Both the position numbers and the translations under genes were made by a program. A DNA stretch of 46,004 nucleotides from contig JAISUT010000011.1 of NCBI GenBank assembly GCA_031271905.1, positions 1 to 46,004 on the forward strand, written 5' to 3'. The stretch is from Acidobacteriota bacterium. Its GTDB lineage: Bacteria > Acidobacteriota > UBA6911. The notes under the pieces were generated by a model, which was given only the letters and a program-made list of their open reading frames with translations, was not told the origin of the DNA and did not search any database. This document shows, one piece after another, positions 21,770 through 34,563 of the stretch. Numbering within the stretch: position 1 is the stretch's first letter; each line of letters begins with the position of its first letter.

Positions 21770-22376
21770 GGGAACTCCCAGAAGCCTTTCCGGCATTTCC
21801 GGCGCACGCCCCCTCGATCGACTTCATCGCGTCGAGCGTCCGCAGCAACAGTTCGTCGAGCGTCCACCCGAGCCGCCTGGCGCCTTCGACGATCACGTCG
21901 CGGCTGCAACCCGCCGCGAATTTCTTGTCCTTGAACTTCTTCTTGACGCTTGAAAGTTCCATGTCCGCGACGCTTTTCGACGGCCGCATCAACGCCGCCG
22001 CGCCGATCAGCCCCGTGAGCTCGTCGGTCGCGAACAGGATCTTCTCCATCACATGCGTCGGCTCGTGCTCTTTCAAACACAGCCCCGACGGTTGTTCGAT
22101 GCCGTACCCGTGGGACATCGCGGCGTGGACGATGCCTTCGTCAACGTCGTTCTCGCGAAGGAGCTCCACGCCTTTGACGCAATGCAGCTCGGGGAAAAGC
22201 TCGAAATCCACGTCGTGCAAAAGCCCGACGACCGCCCAATAGTCCTGCCGGCCGGGGTCGTATTGCTTTGCGAAATGCCGCAGGGTCTCCGACACGATTT
22301 TCGCGTGTTGCAGATGAAACGCCTCGCGGTTGTATTTTTCCAGAATGGCTTGCGCTTGTTCGATCGTCGGTATCAT
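21762..22376 (-). CDS. HD-domain hydrolase-like protein
   Basis: 204 aa from the ATG at 22376 (MIPTIEQAQAILEKYN); a start at 22406 is possible. HD phosphohydrolase fold: 'HLQHAKIVSETLRHFA', 'VGLLHDVDFELFPELHCVKG', 'VHAAMSHGYGIEQPSG'. Such stand-alone proteins resemble predicted nucleotide or phosphate-ester hydrolases; the substrate is unknown. It is first in the HD-AAA-VWA cluster and overlaps the AAA gene. Confidence 0.85.
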   Translation of the reverse strand: MIPTIEQAQAILEKYNREAFHLQHAKIVSETLRHFAKQYDPGRQDYWAVVGLLHDVDFELFPELHCVKGVELLRENDVDEGIVHAAMSHGYGIEQPSGLCLKEHEPTHVMEKILFATDELTGLIGAAALMRPSKSVADMELSSVKKKFKDKKFAAGCSRDVIVEGARRLGWTLDELLLRTLDAMKSIEGACAGNAGKASGSSHG

Positions 22377-22387
22377 CTCCCCCCCAC

Positions 22388-22660
22388 TATGCGTCCGCCC
22401 CGCCATGGAACACCGGCTTGCCGATCGTCATTTCGTCCTCGCCGGCGGGCATGGCGGCCTCGAGGTGGCCGATTCCGCAGGCTTCCGGCGGGGATAGCCA
22501 AAGGAACCAGGTGGTCGCCCATGAAACAGGTCGCGCCCTCCACATGCACCACAACCATGAGAAGGACTTGACGACGAACATTGACGGCATGGACAAGACG
22601 GACACCGACTTCTGGGACGGGAGCCGCCTGATTGCATTGGATGCGCGCACGCGACCCTAG
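22388..22660 (+). pseudogene. Remnant resembling a zinc metalloprotease active-site region
   Basis: An open stretch of 90 codons on the plus strand reads 'NTGLPIVISSSPAGMAASRW', then 'NQVVAHETGRALHMHHNHE', then 'DGMDKTDTDFWDGSRLIALD' before TAG. HETGRALHMHH looks like the zincin signature HExxH with the second His changed to Arg (CGC; CAC would be His). It has no start or upstream domain and is wedged between the starts and stops of two minus-strand genes. Family assignment is tentative. Confidence 0.35.
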
Positions 22661-23157
22661 GAGAGGTACAGCAGCAGGAACGCATGCCAAAACGCCAGCA
22701 GGATGTACGCCCACAGGCAGAAGCGGGCGGCGTATTTCCCGAAAGTCCACTCCTTGTGCAACATGATCACGGCGACCGGGACGATGGTCATGACGATCTT
22801 CGCCAAGTAGAACGCCGGATACCCGCCCGCGTCCAAGACGACCCGCATCACGGGGTTCGCCTCTTCGGCAGTGCCCATCTCCAGATGGAATTGGGTCAAG
22901 AGGGTGTCCAGCAACGAAAGCACCAAGACCGCGATGGCGATGCCCCAGCTCCGCGCGCCGTAGTGATCGACATAGGCGCCGGGATCGGTCTTGCGCCGCC
23001 CCCGGCTCTTGCGGCGGCGGGGGCTGTTGGAGAACACGTCACGGAACGACGTAGGCTCCCGGCGTCCGAAGGCGGAGCGCCGCCGTTCCGCCCGCGGCCA
23101 TATCCTTTCCCGCGTCGTCGTCTCCCCGCCCACCACGTCGTCCATGTCCGTTTTCAT
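22657..23157 (-). CDS. DUF5658 family membrane protein
   Basis: 166 aa from the ATG at 23157, which overlaps the queG stop as ATGA; longer starts would lie within queG. A charged, basic N-terminus (residues 1-70, 'RRRKSRGRRKTDPG') is followed by three to four membrane helices with the DUF5658 signature 'SLLDTLLTQFHLEMGTAEEA' and 'NPVMRVVL'. Function is unknown. Translational coupling to queG is probably incidental. Confidence 0.8.
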   Translation of the reverse strand: MKTDMDDVVGGETTTRERIWPRAERRRSAFGRREPTSFRDVFSNSPRRRKSRGRRKTDPGAYVDHYGARSWGIAIAVLVLSLLDTLLTQFHLEMGTAEEANPVMRVVLDAGGYPAFYLAKIVMTIVPVAVIMLHKEWTFGKYAARFCLWAYILLAFWHAFLLLYLS

Positions 23158-24326
23158 CCCGTTCCAGCTTCTTCCCGCCCGTCCAGCGCACGCGCGACCT
23201 CCGCCAGCACGCCCTCGTCCGACTCCCTGTCCCGCACGGATGTTAAGATAGCACAAGCCCTGCCTCGCAGTACACGCCCAAGCGCCCAGGCGGCATGGGC
23301 GCGCACCAACGGGCTGTAGTCCCCGAGCGCCGCCTCCAGCGCCTGGACGACCTCATCCCGCGCCCCTTCGTCCGAGGCGCCGACGTTGCCGAGGGCGACG
23401 ACGACGTTGCGCACGAACCCGTCGCGGGTCGCGCGCAAGACCGGGCTGCCGGCGAACCGTCGCGCGAACCCCTCCCGCGACAGACGCGCGAGCGGCACCA
23501 GATCCGGCGCCAAGTTCTCCGCCCGGGGCGCCAACGCGCCCACTGGCGTCGCGGCGGCGAACCGGTTCCAAGGGCAGGCGTCCTGGCAGGCGTCGCATCC
23601 GAATATCCGCGCGCCGACCAGCGGCCTGAGCCCGCGCGGGATCTCCCCCCGGGACTCGATCGTCAAATACGACAGGCAGCGCCTGGCGTCCAGCCGATAC
23701 GCCTGCACGAGCGCGCCCGTAGGGCAGGCGTCGAGGCAGCGCCGGCATGTCCCGCAAAACTCCTTGCCTTTATCGTCATAATCCAAGGGAATGTCCAGAA
23801 GAATCACGCCGAGGAAAAAACGGGTGCCGAGCCGCCGCGAGACCAGCCCGGTGTGCTTCCCCGTCCAACCGACGGAGGTGGCGGCGCCCCAAGCCTTTTC
23901 CGCAACCGGCCCGGTGTCCGCGTGGCAGACGCCGCGCGCGGAGGGAACCTCGCCGCGGACGAAGGCGAGCAGGCCCTCCAGACGCCCCTTGACGATTGCA
24001 TGGTAGTCCGCGCCGCGTGCGTAGCGGCCGATGACGCCACGGACGCCCTCCCCTTCCGGTTGTTGCGCGGCGGCGGGCGCTCCGTCCGAGTGGTAGCTCA
24101 TCGCCGCGACGAGGATCGAGCGGACGCCCGCGAGCACGAGGCCGGGATTGGCGCGCCGCCCCTCCTGCCGTTCGAGGTAGCGCATCCCGCCGTGGAAACC
24201 GTCGCGCAGCCAGGCGCGGAACCGCCCGGCGCCGGGGGCGTCCCCCGCGCGCGCGACGCCCATCTCGGAGAAGCCGAGCCGCAACGCCTCCCGCCGTATC
24301 TTCTGGGTCAGCAGCCGGACATCCAT
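23154..24326 (-). CDS. queG: Epoxyqueuosine reductase QueG
   Basis: 390 aa from the ATG at 24326, one base overlapping the stop of the small gene before it. QueG reduces epoxyqueuosine to queuosine in the wobble position of tRNAs using cobalamin and two [4Fe-4S] clusters. Visible: 'GFSEMGVARAGDAPG', 'RYARGADYHAIVKGRLEGL', 'CHADTGPVAEKAWGA', the cluster motifs 'FCGTCRRCLDACPTGAL' and 'IFGCDACQDACPWN', and a C-terminal HEAT-like repeat region ('NVVVALGNVGASDEG', 'RAHAAWALGRVL'). Length is normal. Confidence 0.95.
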   Translation of the reverse strand: MDVRLLTQKIRREALRLGFSEMGVARAGDAPGAGRFRAWLRDGFHGGMRYLERQEGRRANPGLVLAGVRSILVAAMSYHSDGAPAAAQQPEGEGVRGVIGRYARGADYHAIVKGRLEGLLAFVRGEVPSARGVCHADTGPVAEKAWGAATSVGWTGKHTGLVSRRLGTRFFLGVILLDIPLDYDDKGKEFCGTCRRCLDACPTGALVQAYRLDARRCLSYLTIESRGEIPRGLRPLVGARIFGCDACQDACPWNRFAAATPVGALAPRAENLAPDLVPLARLSREGFARRFAGSPVLRATRDGFVRNVVVALGNVGASDEGARDEVVQALEAALGDYSPLVRAHAAWALGRVLRGRACAILTSVRDRESDEGVLAEVARALDGREEAGTG

Positions 24327-24625
24327 CACAATTCGATTTCGATGCGCACCACGCCCGCCGGGTCGTCCATCTTGAGGCGGCGGATCATGCCGCGCACCGT
24401 GTCGGAGATCATCTTCTCCGCGAAACCGCTGGCGAGGTCGAGCGGCAGCGGCTCCCCGTTCAACCGGATGCGCGCCGCATCCCCTTCGAGGTCGTAGCGG
24501 AGCGTCCGCACCGGCGCATTGGTCTTGAGCGCGTCCACGATGCCGACGCATACGTTGCCGACGTACCTGCCGATGAACGGCGTCAGGGGGGCTTCGACAT
24601 CATTGCTGTACATGCGAATCTTCAT
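24326..24625 (-). CDS. Small conserved hypothetical protein (99 aa)
   Basis: Starts MKIRMYSNDVEAPLTPFIGR and ends GVVRIEIEL. Its codon use matches its neighbours, and it is tightly packed between tsaD (55 bp) and queG (1-bp overlap), so it is very likely a real gene in the tsaD operon. No known family is recognised. No membrane segment or signal; a mixed alpha/beta composition. Confidence 0.6.
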   Translation of the reverse strand: MKIRMYSNDVEAPLTPFIGRYVGNVCVGIVDALKTNAPVRTLRYDLEGDAARIRLNGEPLPLDLASGFAEKMISDTVRGMIRRLKMDDPAGVVRIEIEL

Positions 24626-24680
24626 ATGCGGATCCTATCTCACGTTTGCACGATAACGGCGGCGACGTCACCAGGCGCGG

Positions 24681-25865
24681 TCAGCAAAGCACGAGGCCGG
24701 GGTCGGCGTTCATGCCGAGGTCGAGCGGGAGTCCGCGCGCGGCAAGCAGCCTGGGCGTGCCTGCGGCGGCGATCATCACGCCGTTGTCCGTCGTATACGC
24801 CGGACTGGGGATGTAGACCCGCACCTCCGCCCCGTCGTCAAGCGAAGGACGCGTCAGCGTCCTGTCATCAAGTAAGCCACGCGCCAGCGACTTGTCGCCA
24901 GACAAGCCGCGCGTCAGCGTCCTGTCATCAAGTAAGCCACGCGCCAGCGACTTGTCGCCAGACAAGCCGCAAGGCGACGCCTCGCGCCCGGTCTCGAACG
25001 TCCGGCGGAAGGAGTCGCGCAGCAGGCTGTTGCAGGCGACCCCGCCGACCAGGAGCATCGAGCGGGGGCGCAGCCGCTCGGCGGCCTTGCGCGTCTGGCG
25101 GATGAGCGTATCGACGATGGCGCGCTGGTAGCTGGCGACCAAGTCCAGCACGACCTGGGAGACCCTGCCGCCGCGCTGCGGCTTGATGCCCGCCGCCTGG
25201 ATATGGCGCAGGGCGGCGGTCTTGAACCCGCTGAAGCTGAAGTCGAGCCGCCCGTCGCTGATCTTGGGGATGGAGAAGGCGAACCGCCCCGCGTCGCCCC
25301 CTTTCGCCAGCCGGTCGATGACAGGCCCGCCCGGATAGCCCAGCCCGAGGAACTTGGACACCTTGTCCAGCGCCTCGCCGGCCGCGTCGTCGCGCGTGCG
25401 CCCGACGACCTCGTAGCGCCCGGGCCCGGGCGCGTGGATCAGCGAGGAATGGCCGCCGGAGACGGTCAGGGCGAGCAGAGGGTATTCGATGCCCGGGTTC
25501 TCGACGAACGCGGAGAATATGTGCCCCTCGACGTGGTTGACCGGAACCAGGGGTTTGCCCGTGGCGAACGCCATCGCCTTGGCGAACGACACCCCCACCA
25601 GGAGTGAGCCGACCAGCCCGGGCCCTTGCGTCACGGCGATGCCGTCGATGTCCTCCTGCGCCTTGCCCGCCTCCTTGAACGCCTGGCTGACGACGTAGCC
25701 GATGTTGCGCAGATGCTCCCGGCTCGCCAGCTCCGGCACGACGCCGCCGAAGGCGCGATGCGTCGCGACCTGCGACGCCACCACGCTGGAGAGCACACGG
25801 TGGCCGTCTTGGACCAGCGCCGCCGCCGTCTCGTCGCAGGATGATTCGATCCCGAGCACCAACAT
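24681..25865 (-). CDS. tsaD: tRNA N6-threonylcarbamoyladenosine transferase TsaD
   Basis: 394 aa from the ATG at 25865 ([20 protein letters not shown]), with GGGAG upstream. TsaD transfers threonylcarbamoyl to A37 of ANN-decoding tRNAs with TsaB and TsaE. Metal ligands are in '[14 protein letters not shown]' and '[12 protein letters not shown]'; the nucleotide site includes '[11 protein letters not shown]' and '[12 protein letters not shown]'. It is about 50 residues longer than typical. The excess is a 40-residue tandem repeat (residues about 299-338) inserted before '[12 protein letters not shown]', encoded by two identical 60-bp units. The fold on either side is intact, so it should be functional. 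First gene of a minus-strand operon. Confidence 0.95.
24851..24970. repeat. Perfect 60-bp tandem duplication inside tsaD
   Basis: Positions 24851-24910 and 24911-24970 are identical. Each 60-bp unit encodes [20 protein letters not shown], itself two related decapeptides of the pattern GLxxDxxLxR. A degenerate further unit (PSLDDG) follows. The reading frame is kept. Confidence 0.95.
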
Positions 25866-25924
25866 CTCTCCCACCTCATCGCCCTTCACGGCGCCCTTCA
25901 CGGAAAAATCGTTATTATACCCTG

Positions 25925-25953
25925 CTGACAAGCCCTCCCGGTTTGGTTATATT
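25925..25953 (+). promoter_or_regulatory. Putative mtnA promoter
   Basis: CTGACA (25925-25930), a 17-bp spacer and TATATT (25948-25953), about 35 bp before the mtnA ATG. On the opposite strand TATAAT (25919-25914) is a candidate -10 for tsaD, so the gap appears to be a divergent promoter. Confidence 0.5.
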
Positions 25954-25986
25954 GAGCAGTCTTTGGGAACCTGGAGGGGGGGGGCA

Positions 25987-27057
25987 ATGATACGGACGAT
26001 CGAATGGACTGACGCGGGGGTCGTGATGCTGGACCAGAAGCTGCTGCCTGCGCAGGAGACCTACCGCACCTACACCGACTACACGGGGGTGGCGGAGGCC
26101 ATCCGCTCCATGGTCGTCCGCGGGGCGCCCGCCATCGGCGTCGCCGCCGCCATGGGGGTCGCCCTCGGCGTCAAGGCGTCCCTGGCGCGCTCCGCCGGGG
26201 AGCTGGACCGGGAGTTCGCCACGGTCTGCGACCACATAGCCGGAACGCGCCCGACGGCGGTCAACCTCTTCTGGGCGGTGGACCGCATGAAGGCGGCATA
26301 CGCCCGCGCCAAGGTGGAGGCGCAAGGCGCGGCGGCGGGCGACCTCTTGGCGTCCGTGAGGGACGCCCTCGTCAAGGAGGCGCTCGCCGTCCACCGGGAG
26401 GACGTCGCCGCCAATCGCGCCCTGGGGCGCTTCGGACAGGAGCTCATACCCGACGGCGCGCGCATCCTGACGCACTGCAACGCCGGGGCGCTGGCTACGG
26501 CGGGGCACGGCACCGCCCTAGGGGTCGTCCGCGCCGCCGTCGAGGCGGGGAAGAAGGTGTCGGTCTTCGCCGACGAGACCCGCCCGTTCCTGCAAGGGGC
26601 GCGCCTCACCGCATGGGAGCTGGCGCATGACGGCATCCCCGTAACCGTCATCACCGACAACATGGCGGGCCATTTCATGCACAAGGGGGAGATCGACTGC
26701 GTGATCGTCGGGGCGGACCGCATCGCGCGCAACGGCGACGTCGCCAACAAGATCGGCACCTACGGGGTGGCGGTGCTGGCGAAGGAGAACGGCGTCCCCT
26801 TCTACGTGGCGGCCCCGGTCTCCACGCTGGACTTGTCCATCCCCGACGGCGGGCGCATCAAGATCGAGGAGCGCGACCCGGACGAGGTGCGCCGGATACA
26901 AGGGGTGGCGATCACGCCCGAGGGCGTCCCGGTCAAGAACCCCTCGTTCGACGTGACCCCCGCCCGCTACGTCGGGGCGATCATCACCGAGCGCGGCGTC
27001 GCCCGCCCCGACTACGCCGAGTCGCTGCCAGCGTTGCAATCGGCGTCGCAATCGTAA
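25987..27057 (+). CDS. mtnA: S-methyl-5-thioribose-1-phosphate isomerase
   Basis: 356 aa from the ATG at 25987 with a G-rich ribosome site. MtnA isomerises methylthioribose-1-phosphate to the ribulose form in methionine salvage. Signatures: '[17 protein letters not shown]', '[20 protein letters not shown]' (catalytic Cys), '[18 protein letters not shown]', '[19 protein letters not shown]' (catalytic Asp). Length is normal. No other salvage genes are nearby; MtnA homologues in anaerobes also act in other thioribose or deoxyribose shunts. Confidence 0.95.
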
Positions 27058-27170
27058 ATCCCCTTCCCCGCGCCGCGTGTTTTCGTTGTAGAATCGACGC
27101 GCGCCGACAAGCGGGGCGGGGACGGAGGCGCACGGGGCTGGAAGCCGGAATTCGCAGGGGGAGGGCGGAG

Positions 27171-28976
27171 ATGCGACGGAGCGGGACATTGAATCGGCGG
27201 GCGTTTCTCAAGACCACGGCGGCGGCGGGCGCCATCGCAGCCAGCCAAATGGCGGCGGCGGCGGGGGCGGAGTCCGGGGCGGCGGAGTCGGGCAAGGAGG
27301 AGGGGCACGAGCTCATCCTCGAGTCGATCGCAGCGGCGGGGGCGAAGAAGGTCTTCTACTGCGGCGGCACCGACAACTTCTACTTCATGGAGTCGGTGGC
27401 GAAATTCAAGGCCCTCGGCAGGCCATGCCCGGATCTGGTCACGGTCATGCACGAGTCCGACGCCCTCTACATGAACATGGGATACGCCCAGTGGTCGGGC
27501 AAGCCCCAGGTGACCTTCCTGCACGTCGATTCGGGGACGATCAACGCCGGCGCGGCGTGGCCAGAGGCGTGGCACGCCAACGCAGGCATAGTCGTCATGG
27601 CGGGGCGCACGCCCTGGACGTCGCGGAACGAGCTGCCCGGCGCGCGCTCCTTCCCCGTCCACTGGGAGCAGGAGGTCTACGACCAGGCCGCCATCGTCCG
27701 GCAGTACACGAAGTGGGACTACGAGGTCAAGACCGTCGAGAACGCCTCGCTGGTCGTCCAAAGCGCCTTCCGCATCGCCGCGAGCGAGCCGTGCGGCCCG
27801 GCGTACCTGACCCTGCCGCGCGAGGTCGTGGCGGCGCAGTTCGAGGGCGGGCGGGTGGCGCGCCTGCGCCCGGAGGACTTCATGCCTGCGGTCTCGGCGC
27901 AAGGGGACGCGGCGGCGCTGCGCGAGGCGGCGAAGAGGCTGGTCCAGGCCGACAACCCCCTCATCCTGGTCAAGAGCATGGGGCGGCACCCGGAGGCGGT
28001 GGCGACGCTGGTGGGCCTGGCGGAGAAGCTGGCGGTGGCGGTCAACTCGACCGACACCTTCATGAACTTCCCGAAAAACCACTGGGCGCGCGCAGAGAGC
28101 CGTCTGGCGGAGCGGGACTTGATCCTGATCATCGACCACGACATCCCCTGGGTCAAGGAGGCGCCCGCGCCGACGGCGACGGTCATATCGCTGGACGCCG
28201 ACCCGATGCGGTTGAAGCAGCCCCTCTGGGGCTTCCCGGTCCACATCCCCATCACCTGCGACTCGTCCAAGGCCCTGCCGCTCCTGCTGGATATGACGGA
28301 GGAGTTCGTCACTGCGCGCCGGAGGAAGGTCATCGAGGGGCGCCGGGAAAAGTTGCGCGCCGACTGGAGGCTCGCCGAGGCGGCGGCGCGGGCGGAGGTC
28401 GCCGCCGCGCGCACGGCGTATCCGCTGTCCCCCGCCTGGGTGCGCGAATGCGTGAACCAGGTCTCTGACGAGGACACGGTGCTGCTCTGGGAGATCGCCG
28501 CCATCCGGCAGGGGGATCGCACCCCGCCCGGACACGTCTTCTCGCAATACGCGGCCAACCTGGGCAACGCCTGGCCGCGCGGCATCGGCATCAAGATGGC
28601 GGCGCCGGACAAGACGGTCATCGCGAGCGGCGGCGACGGCGCGACGATCTTCTCCAACCCCGAGGCGGCGCTCTGGACTTCGCGCAAATACGGCGCGCCC
28701 ATCCTGTACATCGTCAACAACAACAACAAGTACGCCGCCGTCGAGGACAACCTGGCCGCCTATGGCGGCGCGGCGAGTTACGCGGGCAGGGCGGGGTTCA
28801 ACGGCTCAGACCTCACCCCGTCGCCCGACTTCGCCATGATCGCCAAGGCGATGGGGGCGCACGGGGAGAAGGTCACCGAGCCGGACAAGCTCCCCGCCGC
28901 GCTCCGGCGCTGCCTGGAGGCGGTCAAAGGCGGGCAGTCCGCCGTGCTGGACACCGTGATCGTGAGGGAGGGATAG
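27171..28976 (+). CDS. Tat-exported thiamine diphosphate-dependent enzyme
   Basis: 601 aa, with GAGGGCGGAG before the ATG. The N-terminus is a clear twin-arginine signal ('LNRRAFLKTTAAAGAIAAS', Ala-rich to about residue 35). The rest has the three-domain acetolactate synthase/benzoylformate decarboxylase fold: pyrimidine domain with 'VMHESDALYMNMGYAQWSG' (the Glu that activates ThDP), central domain, and PP domain with 'ASGGDGATIFSNPEAALW' ending in a run of Asn (VNNNNK). Tat export implies folding with cofactor in the cytoplasm and action outside it. Thiamine enzymes are normally cytosolic, so substrate and electron acceptor are unclear. It ends at a strong hairpin facing modA. Confidence 0.88.
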   Translation: MRRSGTLNRRAFLKTTAAAGAIAASQMAAAAGAESGAAESGKEEGHELILESIAAAGAKKVFYCGGTDNFYFMESVAKFKALGRPCPDLVTVMHESDALYMNMGYAQWSGKPQVTFLHVDSGTINAGAAWPEAWHANAGIVVMAGRTPWTSRNELPGARSFPVHWEQEVYDQAAIVRQYTKWDYEVKTVENASLVVQSAFRIAASEPCGPAYLTLPREVVAAQFEGGRVARLRPEDFMPAVSAQGDAAALREAAKRLVQADNPLILVKSMGRHPEAVATLVGLAEKLAVAVNSTDTFMNFPKNHWARAESRLAERDLILIIDHDIPWVKEAPAPTATVISLDADPMRLKQPLWGFPVHIPITCDSSKALPLLLDMTEEFVTARRRKVIEGRREKLRADWRLAEAAARAEVAAARTAYPLSPAWVRECVNQVSDEDTVLLWEIAAIRQGDRTPPGHVFSQYAANLGNAWPRGIGIKMAAPDKTVIASGGDGATIFSNPEAALWTSRKYGAPILYIVNNNNKYAAVEDNLAAYGGAASYAGRAGFNGSDLTPSPDFAMIAKAMGAHGEKVTEPDKLPAALRRCLEAVKGGQSAVLDTVIVREG

Positions 28977-28977
28977 A

Positions 28978-29006
28978 GCCTTCGCGGGGACGCGCCCCGC
29001 GAAGGC
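28978..29006. terminator. Bidirectional hairpin terminator between the thiamine enzyme gene and modA
   Basis: GCCTTCGCGGGG and CCCCGCGAAGGC form a perfect 12-bp stem around a 5-nt loop (ACGCG), placed between two convergent stop codons. No T-tract, but the position and strength support a terminator. Confidence 0.7.
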
Positions 29007-29018
29007 GCCTCGCCCCGG

Positions 29019-29831
29019 CTACTGCGGGTTGGCGAAGCCGTACTTCTTGAGGATCGCCTTGCCCGCCTTGCTCTGCGCCAACTCGATGAACTTCGCCGCC
29101 GCCGCGCCGTTGGCGGAATCCTTCAACACCGCTATCGGATAGGTGATCTCCTCGTGCGTCCCCTTGGGGGCGGTCGCCACCACGCGGATCTTCCCCGTGG
29201 CGACCGCCGCGTCGGAGGCGTAGACCAGCCCCGCCTCCACCTCGCCGCGAGAGACGTAGTCCAGCACCTGCCGCACGTTCTCGGCGTAGATGAACCGGGG
29301 CTGCAACGCATCCCACAGCTTGAGCGCCGTCAGCGATTCCTGCGCGTACTGCCCCGCCGGCACCGTCTTGGGGTTGCCGATGGAGATGCGGGCGACCTTC
29401 GCGTCGGCCAGATCCTGGAACGACTTGATCTTCAGCTTGGAGTCCGCCGGCACCACCAGCACCAGGGAGTTGCCCGTGAAGTCCGCCCTCGTGCCCTCCT
29501 TGACCAACCCCTTCTTCTCGATCTCGTCCATCTGCTTCTGCGCGGCGCTGGCGAACACGTCCACCGGCGCGCCCGCCTCGATCTGCTGCTGCAACACGCC
29601 GGAGGCGGCGAAGTTGAAGTTCGGGTGGTAGCCCGTCCTCTTCTCGTAGACCGCGCCCAGCTCCTCGAAGGCGTTTTTCAGGCTGGCCGCCGCCGAGACG
29701 GTGATCTCCTTCTTCTGCGCAAACGCGCCGGACGCCGCCAGCGCCCCCACCGCCAGAACCAGCGCCGCCCCCATGAGCGCACGGCGCGCCCGCTTGAATC
29801 CCCTGAATCCCCTCGCTTCCCTCGTGTCCAT
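29019..29831 (-). CDS. modA: Molybdate ABC transporter substrate-binding protein ModA
   Basis: 270 aa from the ATG at 29831 with a textbook AAGGAGG. A signal peptide ends near residue 38 (ALAASGAFA). The mature protein is ModA-like: 'ITVSAAASLKNAFEELGAVY', 'FNFAASGVLQQQIEAGAPVD', 'NPKTVPAGQYAQESL', 'LDYVSRGEVEAGLVYASDA'. It binds molybdate or tungstate in the periplasm for an ABC importer. No permease (ModB) or ATPase (ModC) gene is adjacent, so it must work with distant ones. The molybdenum/tungsten enzymes at both ends of this window would be consumers. Confidence 0.93.
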   Translation of the reverse strand: MDTREARGFRGFKRARRALMGAALVLAVGALAASGAFAQKKEITVSAAASLKNAFEELGAVYEKRTGYHPNFNFAASGVLQQQIEAGAPVDVFASAAQKQMDEIEKKGLVKEGTRADFTGNSLVLVVPADSKLKIKSFQDLADAKVARISIGNPKTVPAGQYAQESLTALKLWDALQPRFIYAENVRQVLDYVSRGEVEAGLVYASDAAVATGKIRVVATAPKGTHEEITYPIAVLKDSANGAAAAKFIELAQSKAGKAILKKYGFANPQ

Positions 29832-30254
29832 AAGCCTCCTTAGCCTGCACCTGGTTGGAACCCGTTTTTTGCCGGTTGCGCGCCGGACATAGGCGCCGCC
29901 GAATCGCCATCGGAGCGAAAATGTCTTGTTTTCGCAACACGCTCGGCGTTTAAACGCAGATTTTCCGGCTGGAGGATTACATTGTCAAGGAAAACAAACG
30001 AAGAAGCGGGGAAGAAGCGGCCGAGGGCGTCAGGCTGCCGCCCGCCTAAAATGCGTTTCATCGCGAAAGTTTTCGCCCTCCCCTGCCGATGTGTAAGAGA
30101 GGAAAATTCGCGCAACGGTCATTTTTGTGCGCACGACGACGGCAAACGGTCTACAATGCAATTTCCAAATTGACGCAAAGGATGCGCGGACGCCCCCGCC
30201 TGACGGCAAGCGGGCTGCGACCATCGCATCTGTTTCCGAGGAGGCATCACGACT
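29832..30254. other. Intergenic region between divergent modA and glgP
   Basis: 423 bp with no convincing gene on either strand. A TACAAT hexamer at 30152-30157 could be the -10 of glgP, but its -35 is weak. An AT-richer stretch at about 29920-30000 may hold the modA promoter. I found no riboswitch or molybdate-operator motif I could defend. Confidence 0.4.
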
Positions 30255-32837
30255 ATGAAACCGGTTCAGACCTTCACCATCATCCCCCGACTCCCCGCTG
30301 CCCTGGATCGCCTGCGCGACCTCGCCTACAACGTGCATTGGGCGTGGGACTCGGAGACCATCGAGCTGTTCCGGCGCCTGGATCCCAACCTGTGGGAGAC
30401 CACCGGGCACAACCCCGTGCGCATCCTCGGCTCGCTCAGCCAGACCCGCTTGGAGGACGCCGCGACCGACGAGTCGTTCATGAACCATTTCGGGCGGGTG
30501 CTGGCGTCGTTCGACAAGTACATGGAGAACAAGGGGAGCTGGTTCCAGAAGGCGCATGCGGGGGCGTCGCCGGTGATCGCCTATTTCTCCGCCGAGTTCG
30601 GCCTGACCGAATGCCTCTCCATCTTCGCCGGGGGCTTGGGGATGCTGGCGGGCGACCACCTGAAATCCGCCAGCGACCTGGGGCTGCCGCTGGTGGGCGT
30701 CGGGCTGCTTTACCAGCAGGGCTACTTCCGCCAATACCTGAACCCCGCCGGCTGGCAGCAGGAGGCGTATGAGGACAACGACTTCCACACCCTGCCGACG
30801 TCGGTGGTCTACGGCGCGGACGGCGCCCCCCTGCGCGTCGAGGTCCCCATGCCGGGGCGCAAGACCCTGGCGCAGGTGTGGCTCGTGAAGGTGGGGCGCG
30901 TCTCGCTCTACCTGCTGGACACGAACCTCCCGGAAAACAGCGACCGCGACCGCGACCTGACCGACCAGTTGTACGGCGGCAACCTCGAATACAGGCTGCA
31001 ACAGGAGATCCTGCTCGGCATCGGCGGTTGCAAGGCGCTGGAGGCGCTCGGCGTCCGGCCCACCGTCTACCACATGAACGAGGGGCATTCGGCGTTCCTG
31101 TCGCTCGAGTTGACGCGACGCCTGATGGGGGAGTGCAAGCTCGCCTTCGAGGAGGCGCGCACGCTCGCATCCTCGGCGCTGGTCTTCACCACGCACACGC
31201 CCGTCGCCGCAGGGCACGACTACTTCCCCCCCGACCTGATGTACGGCTACTTCAAGGACTACGCCGCCGCCTTAGGCCTCACGTTCGACGACTTCATGGC
31301 GCTTGGGCGCAAGAACCGCCACGACAAGGGGGAGAGCTTCTGCATGACGATCCTCGCCCTGCGCATGGCGGCGTACAGCAACGGCGTCAGCCGCCTGCAC
31401 GGCGAGGTCAGCCGACGCCTCTGGAAGGATCTATGGCCCGAAGTGCCGGAGGACGAGATCCCCATCTCGCACATCACCAACGGCGTGCATTTCCAGTCGT
31501 GGGTCTCGCGGGAGATGGACATCCTATACGAGCGCTACCTCGGCCCGCACTGGCGGGAGCAGTCGGGCGACAGGAGCGCCTGGGACTACACCGGCGCCAT
31601 CGCCGAGGAGAGCCTCTGGCGCACGCACGAGCGGCGGCGCGAGCGGCTGGTGATCTTCACGCGCCGCCAGCTCCACGCCCAGCTCGCCCGACGGGGCGCC
31701 TCCAAGGCGGAGATCGAGGCGGCGAAGTCGGTGCTCGACCCGGAGATACTGACCATCGGGTTCGCACGGCGCTTCGCGACCTACAAGCGCGGCACGCTGC
31801 TGCTGCGCGACACGGAGCGCCTCTGCGCCATCCTGAACAACCACGAGCGCCCGGTGCAGGTGATCTTCGCCGGCAAGGCGCACCCGCATGACGACGCCGG
31901 CAAGGAGCTCATACGGCAGATCGCCTCGCTGGCGCGCGACCCGCGCTTCCGCCAGCGCCTGGTGTTCCTGGAGAACTACGACATGAGCGTGGCGCGCTAC
32001 CTCGTGCAGGGGGTGGACGTGTGGCTCAACACGCCCCTGCGCCCGAACGAGGCGAGCGGCACGAGCGGCATGAAGGCTCTCGCCAACGGCGTCCTGAACC
32101 TGAGCACGTTGGACGGCTGGTGGGACGAGGCGTACCGCTCCTGGGACCCCGACGGCGAGGAGGCGAAAGTCGGCTGGGCCATCGGCAACGGCGAATCCTA
32201 CGCCGACACCGGCTACCAGGATCAGGTGGAGGCGGCGGCGCTCTACGACATCCTGGAACGGGACGTGATCCCCGTCTTCTACGACCGGCGCTCGGACGGG
32301 TTGCCCTACCGGTGGATATCCCTGATGAAGTCGTCCATCGGCAACCTCTGCCGCTTCTTCAACACCCACCGCATGGTGCGCGAATACACAGACCGCTTCT
32401 ACCTGAACGCTGACGCGGGCAACAGGAGCCTGGCCGCCGGCGGCGGGGCGCGTGCGGCGGCGCTCGCCACCGCCTTGGAACGCATCCACGACGCATGGGC
32501 GGGGGTCGAGGTGGGGATCGTCACGGAGAAGGAGGGGCCGGAGCTGCTGTCGGGCGACGCCATGCGCTTCCAGGCGCTGGTGCGCACCGGAGGGCTCTCC
32601 CGGGAGGACTTGCGCGTCGAGCTCTACTCGGGGCGCCTGGACGCCGACGGGGAGATCGAGAACCCCGCCATCGTGCCGATGACGCCGGTCGGAGAGAGGG
32701 ACGGCGGCTACGTCTACGAGACCGTCACCACGCCCGACCGCGGCAACGGCCTGCACGGCTACACGGTGCGCGTCCTGCCGCACCACCCGGACTTGGCGGA
32801 CAAGTTCGCCCCGCGCCTCATCCGCTGGGCGAAGTGA
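30255..32837 (+). CDS. glgP: Alpha-glucan (glycogen/maltodextrin) phosphorylase
   Basis: 860 aa with GAGGAGG upstream. An N-terminal DUF3417 region ('LDRLRDLAYNVHWAWDSET') is followed by the phosphorylase core: 'AYFSAEFGLTECLSIFAGGL', 'VYHMNEGHSAFLSLELTRRL', 'ISHITNGVHFQSWVSREMD', 'GFARRFATYKRGTLLLRD', and the pyridoxal phosphate Lys K607 in 'EASGTSGMKALANGVLNL'. It releases glucose-1-phosphate from glycogen or maltodextrins in the cytoplasm. It is the DUF3417 type common in anaerobes rather than E. coli GlgP-like. Transcribed alone. Confidence 0.95.
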   Translation: MKPVQTFTIIPRLPAALDRLRDLAYNVHWAWDSETIELFRRLDPNLWETTGHNPVRILGSLSQTRLEDAATDESFMNHFGRVLASFDKYMENKGSWFQKAHAGASPVIAYFSAEFGLTECLSIFAGGLGMLAGDHLKSASDLGLPLVGVGLLYQQGYFRQYLNPAGWQQEAYEDNDFHTLPTSVVYGADGAPLRVEVPMPGRKTLAQVWLVKVGRVSLYLLDTNLPENSDRDRDLTDQLYGGNLEYRLQQEILLGIGGCKALEALGVRPTVYHMNEGHSAFLSLELTRRLMGECKLAFEEARTLASSALVFTTHTPVAAGHDYFPPDLMYGYFKDYAAALGLTFDDFMALGRKNRHDKGESFCMTILALRMAAYSNGVSRLHGEVSRRLWKDLWPEVPEDEIPISHITNGVHFQSWVSREMDILYERYLGPHWREQSGDRSAWDYTGAIAEESLWRTHERRRERLVIFTRRQLHAQLARRGASKAEIEAAKSVLDPEILTIGFARRFATYKRGTLLLRDTERLCAILNNHERPVQVIFAGKAHPHDDAGKELIRQIASLARDPRFRQRLVFLENYDMSVARYLVQGVDVWLNTPLRPNEASGTSGMKALANGVLNLSTLDGWWDEAYRSWDPDGEEAKVGWAIGNGESYADTGYQDQVEAAALYDILERDVIPVFYDRRSDGLPYRWISLMKSSIGNLCRFFNTHRMVREYTDRFYLNADAGNRSLAAGGGARAAALATALERIHDAWAGVEVGIVTEKEGPELLSGDAMRFQALVRTGGLSREDLRVELYSGRLDADGEIENPAIVPMTPVGERDGGYVYETVTTPDRGNGLHGYTVRVLPHHPDLADKFAPRLIRWAK

Positions 32838-32934
32838 CCGTCGGCGCGACGCCAGCGCAAACCAAGGGAGGCGCCGGCGCCCTGTGGGCGCGGAGGCGGG
32901 CGCGTCGGCCAGGAGGCGCGGTCAACGCCCCGCC

Positions 32935-33546
32935 TCACATGGGGATCTCGATAGTCACGAACATGCCTACGCGCAACGCGCCGTCGTCGTTGGCGACGGC
33001 GCATCCGACCTTCGAACTGCGCGTGTCCACGTCGATGGCTTTCTCCGCGTAGACGATCTCCCCCCGGAACACCCTGTCCGGCAAAGACGCCGCGCGCACC
33101 TTCACTTCCTTGCCCAACCCCGCGTACACCAAATCCCCCTCGAACACGTCCACCGTCACCCAGAGCCGGGACGGCGGGGACGGCGCGTCGGAGGAGGGGT
33201 GCCCCTGGGGGTGCGTGGAGGTTTCCCGGGACTCATAATGGCCGGAGATGACGCCCGTCGCGTATACGATGTTCCGCCGCTTGTGCGACGCGGCTTTGAC
33301 CGACTTGCCCGCCCCGGCGGCACCGCCTCCGCCCTCGGCCGGAGGTGCCGGATGACCAGGAAGGCGCGGCTTTTCAGGGGAAGGCTTCGCGGGACGCCGC
33401 CCCGCCCCGGCGCCGTCGCGCGCCATCCGGGAGTAGACCGCCTCGCCGACGGCGAGGCTGGCGACGAGGATGCCGATGAGGACGGCGGCGGCGACGCACA
33501 TGCGGCACAAAGGATTCTTCGGCTCCCTGCTGTCGTCCGTCTCCAT
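32935..33546 (-). CDS. Short membrane-anchored protein with an efflux-adaptor-like beta-barrel domain
   Basis: 203 aa from the ATG at 33546 (METDDSREPKNPLC), preceded by GGGGGTTGG. A membrane anchor (about residues 13-35), a Pro/Gly-rich linker (45-80), then a C-terminal part matching the barrel domain of HlyD/CusB-type membrane fusion proteins: 'LWVTVDVFEGDLVYAGLGKE', 'FRGEIVYAEKAIDVDTRSSK', 'LRVGMFVTIEIPM'. The alpha-hairpin and lipoyl halves of a full adaptor (350-450 aa) are absent, and no RND or ABC pump gene adjoins. It is either a trimmed remnant or a specialised mini-adaptor. Confidence 0.65.
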   Translation of the reverse strand: METDDSREPKNPLCRMCVAAAVLIGILVASLAVGEAVYSRMARDGAGAGRRPAKPSPEKPRLPGHPAPPAEGGGGAAGAGKSVKAASHKRRNIVYATGVISGHYESRETSTHPQGHPSSDAPSPPSRLWVTVDVFEGDLVYAGLGKEVKVRAASLPDRVFRGEIVYAEKAIDVDTRSSKVGCAVANDDGALRVGMFVTIEIPM

Positions 33547-33796
33547 CACCAACCCCCAAAGGCCAGGCGCCCGGATGACAGCCGTACCACGGCGACGCGG
33601 GCGGCCATCCCCCGGGCGGGCCAGGCAGACCCGCGTCCCTTCCACGCCGGGGGATGCGTGGGACATCTCGGCGGCGGACATCCCCCTCGGCGATAAAACC
33701 CCTCCCCGTCACGGGCGGCGCCATCGCCCGCGTCTTCTACATCACCACCCCCTCGGCGACGGCGGCCGCAGGCGGGAAACGCCCCCCCCGCCCTCG

Positions 33797-33815
33797 CGCC
33801 GCCTGGCGGGCGGCG
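33797..33815. terminator. GC-rich hairpin downstream of ndk
   Basis: CGCCGCC, loop TGGCG, GGCGGCG: a perfect 7-bp stem about 25 bp after the ndk stop in the minus direction. A weak terminator candidate without a T-tract. Confidence 0.3.
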
Positions 33816-33837
33816 CCCACCAGGCGCCAGGAGACCG

Positions 33838-34563
33838 CTAGGCGATGTTCAGGAGATACTTGGCGGCGACGGCGCCGAGCGGCGTCGCGCTTTCCGCGCC
33901 AGAGGCGATCTTCTGCAACGCCTCGAGGTCGGACCGCCAGAGGACGTCGCCAGGCGCGGCGATGCAACGGGCGCCGGGCGCCTGCTCCGTGGAGAGCGCG
34001 CCGTCCTTGAACCAGTAGAAGGCGTCGCTCGGCGCCGTCGCCCAGGCGAGCATCAGGGGCGGGACGTCCGTCGGCGCGAACCAGAGCTTCACCTCGCGCT
34101 CGGCGTCCGCAGGGTTGGCCGAGGCGTGGATGAGGTTGTCCATGCGGTCGCCGACCACTTTGCCCGAGGCGTCCTTCAAAGGGATGATGGAGCCGAGGGC
34201 GCGGATGCAGCCGGGCTTGGTGTCGCGCGCGACGTGCGGGTTTGTGGGCCCGGCGATGTCGCGGATCTTCTTGATGGCGTCCTGGCCCTGGTAGACGATG
34301 GCGACCACGCGCCGCCGCCACGGCTCGCTCCAGTGCAGCGCGCCCATGATGTAGTCCAGCAGCGAGTCGTAGAACCCCTTCCCCTTGTGCTCCGCGTAAT
34401 GCTCCTCGGCGAGCAGCTTGCTGACCGAGACGATCTTGGCGGCGGACAGGTGCAGGCCGGTGTGGAATTCCGACAACTGCGAGAGCAGGTAGCCCGTCAG
34501 GGAGTTCTGCAGCGCGTCCGGCTTGAGCAACACCAGCGTTTGTTCCAGTTCTTTCGTTTCCAT
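33838..34563 (-). CDS. ndk: Nucleoside diphosphate kinase, long form
   Basis: 241 aa with AGGAA before the ATG. Ndk exchanges gamma-phosphates among nucleoside di- and triphosphates via a phosphohistidine. 'TLVLLKPDALQNSLTGYLLS', 'VVAIVYQGQDAIKKIRDIAG' and the active-site motif 'NLIHASANPADAERE' are present. Typical enzymes have about 140-150 residues. This one has an insertion before the active-site His ('GSIIPLKDASGKVVGDRMD') and a C-terminal extension of about 80 residues of unknown role ('WATAPSDAFYWFKDG', 'AAKYLLNIA'). Codon use is native. A TATAAT -10 lies at 34612-34607 on the minus strand. Confidence 0.88.
   Translation of the reverse strand: METKELEQTLVLLKPDALQNSLTGYLLSQLSEFHTGLHLSAAKIVSVSKLLAEEHYAEHKGKGFYDSLLDYIMGALHWSEPWRRRVVAIVYQGQDAIKKIRDIAGPTNPHVARDTKPGCIRALGSIIPLKDASGKVVGDRMDNLIHASANPADAEREVKLWFAPTDVPPLMLAWATAPSDAFYWFKDGALSTEQAPGARCIAAPGDVLWRSDLEALQKIASGAESATPLGAVAAKYLLNIA

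Follow-up and report, generated by a model that had tools for sequence, protein, structure and literature searches.

Enzymes dependent on thiamine diphosphate (ThDP) are textbook cytoplasmic catalysts, and a gene encoding such an enzyme behind a twin-arginine (Tat) export signal raises the question of whether the product works outside the cytoplasm and, if so, what reaction it performs there. The gene occupies positions 27171-28976 (+) of the window, that is, the whole stretch of 46,004 nucleotides analysed here, and encodes from an ATG start a protein of 601 amino acids, assigned to the PRK08327 family from the ORF list and the Pfam and NCBIfam profile scores. The NF006203/PRK08327 model matched the protein over its whole length, starting at residue 42, with 487.9 bits against a curated cut-off of 456. 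The TPP_enzyme_N domain (residues 45-174; 27303-27692, +) and the TPP_enzyme_C domain (residues 451-593; 28521-28949, +) were recognised by Pfam with 58.0 and 82.5 bits, against cut-offs of 26.8 and 21.9, whereas the central TPP_enzyme_M domain, aligned at residues 251-369, scored 25.7 bits and fell below its cut-off of 30.4. The predicted catalytic residues are intact. They include Glu95 (27453-27455, +), aligned with benzoylformate decarboxylase and conserved in all rows, His118 (27522-27524, +), aligned with an active-site His of that enzyme, and the GDG (residues 488-490; 28632-28640, +) and NN (residues 517-518; 28719-28724, +) of the ThDP/Mg motif, both located in the conservation alignment. 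E95, H118, D489, G490 and N517, as well as the complete GDG and NN, were conserved in all seven close homologues aligned, and E95, D489 and G490 were kept in 33 of 33 rows of the Tat clade and in 13 of 13 other rows.

At E <= 0.001, a phmmer search of the PDB returned 114 distinct sequences of ThDP decarboxylases and acetolactate synthases, the best single match being an ancestral catabolic acetolactate synthase aligned in two separate pieces. The description of the protein as acetolactate-synthase-like therefore holds for the fold class, which is common to acetolactate/acetohydroxyacid synthases, but not for the family, as the acetolactate synthase model TIGR00118 gave 120.8 bits against a cut-off of 538.35. 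An AlphaFold2 model computed from an alignment of the window protein with L033 and L034 was too poor for use (mean pLDDT 48.4, pTM 0.39).

The N-terminus of the protein is MRRSGTLNRRAFLKTTAAAGAIAASQMAAAAGAES, in which residues 1-33 (27171-27269, +) show the tripartite layout of a Tat signal with n-, h- and c-regions. It comprises the motif NRRAFLK, a stretch rich in Ala and the end AGA|E, and a cut is predicted by eye after AGA at residue 33. The twin-arginine motif found by the pattern scan, NRRAFLK (residues 8-14; 27192-27212, +), is of the S/T-R-R-x-F-L-K type with N replacing S/T, and is accompanied by a hydrophobic stretch and a plausible start codon. Residues 34-43 (27270-27299, +) form a linker that, in the alignment, replaces the signal-less N-terminus of the orthologues of the same genus. 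The strict pattern [STN]RRxF[LI]K matched only this N-terminus in the six frames of the 46-kb window, and a looser scan for an RR motif with a hydrophobic stretch marked 3 of 133 window ORFs of at least 100 amino acids. Of 20000 shuffles of the first 45 residues, 21 passed the loose test and none matched the strict pattern; the Tat motif is far above chance. The Pfam model TAT_signal (PF10518) gave the N-terminal fragment 21.0 bits (E 3.1e-4), narrowly under its cut-off of 22.7, and the NCBIfam model TIGR01409 gave the window protein 7.9 bits, clearly under its cut-off of 16.7. Since both curated models are short and remained under their cut-offs, the claim made here is that the protein works like a Tat substrate, rather than one of model-based membership. 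The genome, with 3.40 Mb and 99.8% completeness, encodes one TatC and two TatA-family proteins. The preliminary description had proposed a full Tat signal, RRAFLK with an Ala-rich stretch, on a ThDP enzyme. This was borne out by the motif scan, the shuffles, a GGAGG resembling a Shine-Dalgarno sequence that lies 6 nt upstream of the ATG (27160-27164, +), the Tat genes and the intact catalytic residues. At the level of sequence, the signal, the family, the catalytic residues and the Tat machinery are established; a genuine-looking export tag on the gene suggests that the enzyme is probably active outside the cytoplasm, and Tat export of the window protein is judged likely.

The distribution of the signal among close relatives is uneven. 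Orthologues were found in five of nine other genomes of the genus (E <= 1e-30), with 67-74% identity to the window protein, and all five start about 20-40 residues ahead of the domain and have no Tat motif. Three further members, at 57-59% identity, turned up when 396 genomes from the phylum and 193 from the class of G063 were searched, and belong to other families of the phylum (G063, G503 and G526). A canonical Tat signal is present in all three, in which RRTFLK is kept and the remaining N-terminus is divergent in the alignment. The survey of homologues for a conserved signal, suggested in the preliminary description, thus turned out against it within the genus and in its favour outside. TatC was detected in seven of the eight close-homologue genomes checked, the exception being G002, which is 76% complete. 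On the close-clade tree the Tat label requires two changes; as far as these comparisons go, the signal is real and the close clade has seen at least two gains or losses of it, so that the enzyme seems able to serve on both sides of the membrane. Topology tests rejected neither a single clade of the five signal-less orthologues (p-AU 0.278) nor one of the four Tat rows (p-AU 0.145), the branching order inside the genus being unsettled on the tree used for these tests. The window protein lacks a P-x-F/Y-A segment that, by eye, four of the five signal-less orthologues share with the three outer Tat relatives, and this leans towards a separate gain of the signal, or else a deletion, on the branch leading to the window protein. 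The column of window residue 42 holds a Cys in the five signal-less orthologues of the genus, two residues ahead of the EGHELIL domain start, and not in the four Tat-bearing members.

The five signal-less orthologues also bear on the possibility that the gene encodes the signal while the functional protein stays in the cytoplasm, either through a start at Met27 or because the signal is a non-functional accident of this lineage. An ATG at residue 27, just ahead of the short linker, would suit such a start. However, GGAGG precedes Met1 only, with no similar sequence ahead of the in-frame ATG at residue 27, which favours the long form. A near-canonical motif with a hydrophobic stretch and an AxA site, absent from every shuffle under the strict pattern, and the retention of the same motif in three relatives from other families likewise argue against this explanation, which is considered unlikely.

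The neighbourhood of the gene gives little indication of a pathway. The upstream neighbour is MtnA-like and on the same strand, the downstream neighbour is ModA-like and on the opposite strand, and no conserved operon partner emerged from a comparison of neighbours across the genus together with G063, G526 and G503. Candidates for such a partner were set aside as confined to one genome, in the case of cytochrome bd genes upstream in G003 and of genes of the E1-dehydrogenase type in G007, or to one close pair, in the case of a Tat-signalled carboxylesterase directly upstream in G004 and G005. The latter is a carboxylesterase-family protein with the Tat-like signal TLSRREVIG, directly upstream of the signal-less ThDP orthologue (L051:5013-6743, +; L052:11397-13238, +). 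A TatA-like N-terminal segment fused to Peptidase_M48 also adjoins the signal-less orthologue in these two genomes (L051:8580-9395, -; L052:15073-15822, -), its matches to PF02416 scoring 20.7 and 21.2 bits around a cut-off of 21. Elsewhere in the window, the TsaD gene (24681-25931, -) contains a run of near-identical short repeats ahead of its C-terminal part, where the match to the TsaD model stops.

Signal-less relatives on plasmids offer some guidance as to the reaction. In 40 listed relatives on plasmids, the match begins at residue 48-62, and no Tat signal was detected by the scan in the six that were fetched; compared with these relatives, the window member adds a 43-residue Tat-bearing extension, while the family, annotated as 'thiamine pyrophosphate-requiring protein', has the same catalytic residues. 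The scanned signal-less genes on Comamonas, Neorhizobium and Acidovorax plasmids adjoin aldehyde dehydrogenases, 2-hydroxyacid oxidase or importer-binding proteins. Genes from Phyllobacterium, Terrarubrum and a second one from Neorhizobium, outside the Tat scan, have annotated starts 3-19 codons ahead of the conserved part and adjoin NAD(P)-dependent oxidoreductases, aldehyde dehydrogenases or tricarboxylate-type transporters. The aldehyde dehydrogenase and 2-hydroxyacid oxidase neighbours fit a decarboxylation of 2-oxoacids, and judging from the neighbourhoods this suits an imported substrate whose product is oxidised in the cytoplasm; many Tat members, by contrast, adjoin electron carriers of periplasmic type. 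The most likely functional likeness of the window protein, by analogy, would be a 2-oxoacid decarboxylase or lyase resembling benzoylformate decarboxylase (PDB 1BFD, 4K9L). That enzyme is cytoplasmic and of the same ThDP fold class, and the phmmer alignment with it covers residues 93-587, including the catalytic Glu and an active-site His. The benzoylformate decarboxylase model NF005485 gave 128.9 bits against a cut-off of 493, far below, so the proposed reaction is an analogy.

The reading preferred here, with somewhat better than even confidence, is that the window protein is a PRK08327-family ThDP/Mg enzyme exported by Tat as a holoenzyme, which loses its signal and acts in the periplasm on a 2-oxoacid by non-oxidative cleavage. 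The enzyme would fold and bind its ThDP/Mg cofactor in the cytoplasm, and the folded holoenzyme would then be translocated by the Tat system. A cut, probably after residue 33, would leave an enzyme of about 568 residues in the periplasm, where it would most likely split a 2-oxoacid without oxidation, either decarboxylating it or lysing a C-C bond, to yield an aldehyde. The class of reaction is proposed with less confidence than export. Against this explanation count the five signal-less orthologues of the genus and the lack of a conserved neighbour hinting at a periplasmic pathway, together with the curated Tat models and the benzoylformate decarboxylase model remaining under their cut-offs and the unusable structure model.

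A second and larger set of Tat-bearing ThDP enzymes was found in the phylum, about 25-30% identical to the window protein and represented in some families by several copies per genome. From a homologue set of 65 kept sequences (37 with a Tat signal by scan), 53 were placed in a tree, leaving out six fragments or remote rows and six near-copies; the Tat labels of L017, L092, L078 and L041 were assigned by eye. The Tat label changed four times on this tree, compared with a mean of 15.2 in shuffles (0 of 500 as low), and the window gene and the distant Tat clade lay on different branches. A survey of 83 distinct homologous genes, most of them from the phylum of the window, left out ORFs shorter than 450 codons and those truncated by the end of a contig, a filter by which G017:C128 (Tat with cytochrome) and G028:C774 were presumably dropped. 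Tat signals were scored by scan in 44 of the 83, so that the view of exported ThDP enzymes as unusual is doubtful for this phylum. A c-type cytochrome gene on the same strand within 700 bp accompanied 19 of the 44 Tat-positive genes and one of the 39 scored negative (Fisher p 7e-6, kinship of the genes being ignored). The single scored-negative gene with a cytochrome, on plasmid p3 of Caballeronia zhejiangensis, begins MTARRTFLKEAIAAGAS, a Tat signal by eye; as this gene and L092, L102 and L040 are Tat-bearing by eye though scored negative, 44 is a low count. The annotation of the Caballeronia plasmid has a 'thiamine pyrophosphate-binding protein' followed by a 'c-type cytochrome', 8 bp apart, and a Novosphingobium plasmid carries an equivalent pair. 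Seven cytochrome neighbours were scanned, four of which (L056, L059, L061 and L065) matched haem-protein Pfam families above the cut-off; those at L066 and L067 combined a haem-protein match under the cut-off with a helix-hairpin-helix domain, and that at L062 had no family match and was recognised by CxxCH and similarity to other neighbours. Paired loci on the same strand include L059:712-3029, L061:9059-11654, L065:279-2888 and L111:8001-10564. A PQQ dehydrogenase adjoins the Tat member at L069, and at L102:7146-11297 the genes after that for a Tat-signalled ThDP enzyme encode subunit 3 of a gluconate 2-dehydrogenase, again with a Tat signal, and a GMC oxidoreductase. Outside the window gene itself, this distant pair, for which no name was found, is the more striking observation.

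The pairing could suggest that the window protein is likewise a periplasmic ThDP-dependent dehydrogenase of 2-oxoacids (or aldehydes), passing electrons to a c-type cytochrome, as seems to be the case in the distant Tat clade, but to one encoded elsewhere. The 19 pairs, the four neighbours above the haem-protein cut-offs and the two plasmid pairs are consistent with such an activity. In the close clade, however, a cytochrome neighbour was observed in none of four Tat members and none of five signal-less members, and in the window seven cytochrome seeds gave no match and no CxxCH occurred in the six frames of 22000-34000. This absence across the close clade makes a cytochrome-linked oxidation less likely for the window protein. 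Its separate tree branch from the paired enzymes, which share its superfamily and bear a Tat signal, and the sub-threshold TPP_enzyme_M domain point the same way, and a dehydrogenase role for the window protein appears improbable. The survey for neighbours thus yielded none conserved among close relatives but a cytochrome c beside many distant Tat members, and the question of the electron acceptor, raised in the preliminary description, has a partial answer in the distant clade but no candidate beside the window gene. It is very unlikely that the protein, once exported, remains tethered to the periplasmic side of the membrane through a signal helix that is not cut. Several distant Tat relatives with an SRRxFL signal have no obvious AxA site by eye, but the window signal ends in AGA|E, and those of the close Tat relatives end in Ala-rich segments that resemble cleavage sites, with long linkers behind them.

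The enzyme is a member of a known family, and its unusual part is the predicted compartment. We know of no enzyme of this class with cytochrome c as its electron acceptor. No exported ThDP enzyme was found in the open-licence full-text literature, weak evidence of absence with most subscription journals outside that scope, and PMC4103569, PMC11267869, PMC6413534 and PMC3306737 proved not to be relevant. A wider scenario, put forward tentatively, is that ThDP enzymes relocated to the periplasm more than once. A large lineage of Acidobacteriota and Pseudomonadota would be a periplasmic ThDP dehydrogenase feeding a co-encoded c-type cytochrome, and the window protein would represent an independent relocation of this chemistry, without a partner; 2-oxoacids might then be decarboxylated or oxidised outside the cytoplasm without import. 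If the window enzyme and its relatives are exported with their cofactor bound, 2-oxoacid chemistry would take place in the periplasm and ThDP would leave the cytoplasm inside proteins; in the distant clade, cytochrome c could accept electrons from a ThDP enzyme. The close clade, in which signal-bearing and signal-less enzymes are up to 74% identical, represents a natural experiment in moving an enzyme across the membrane.
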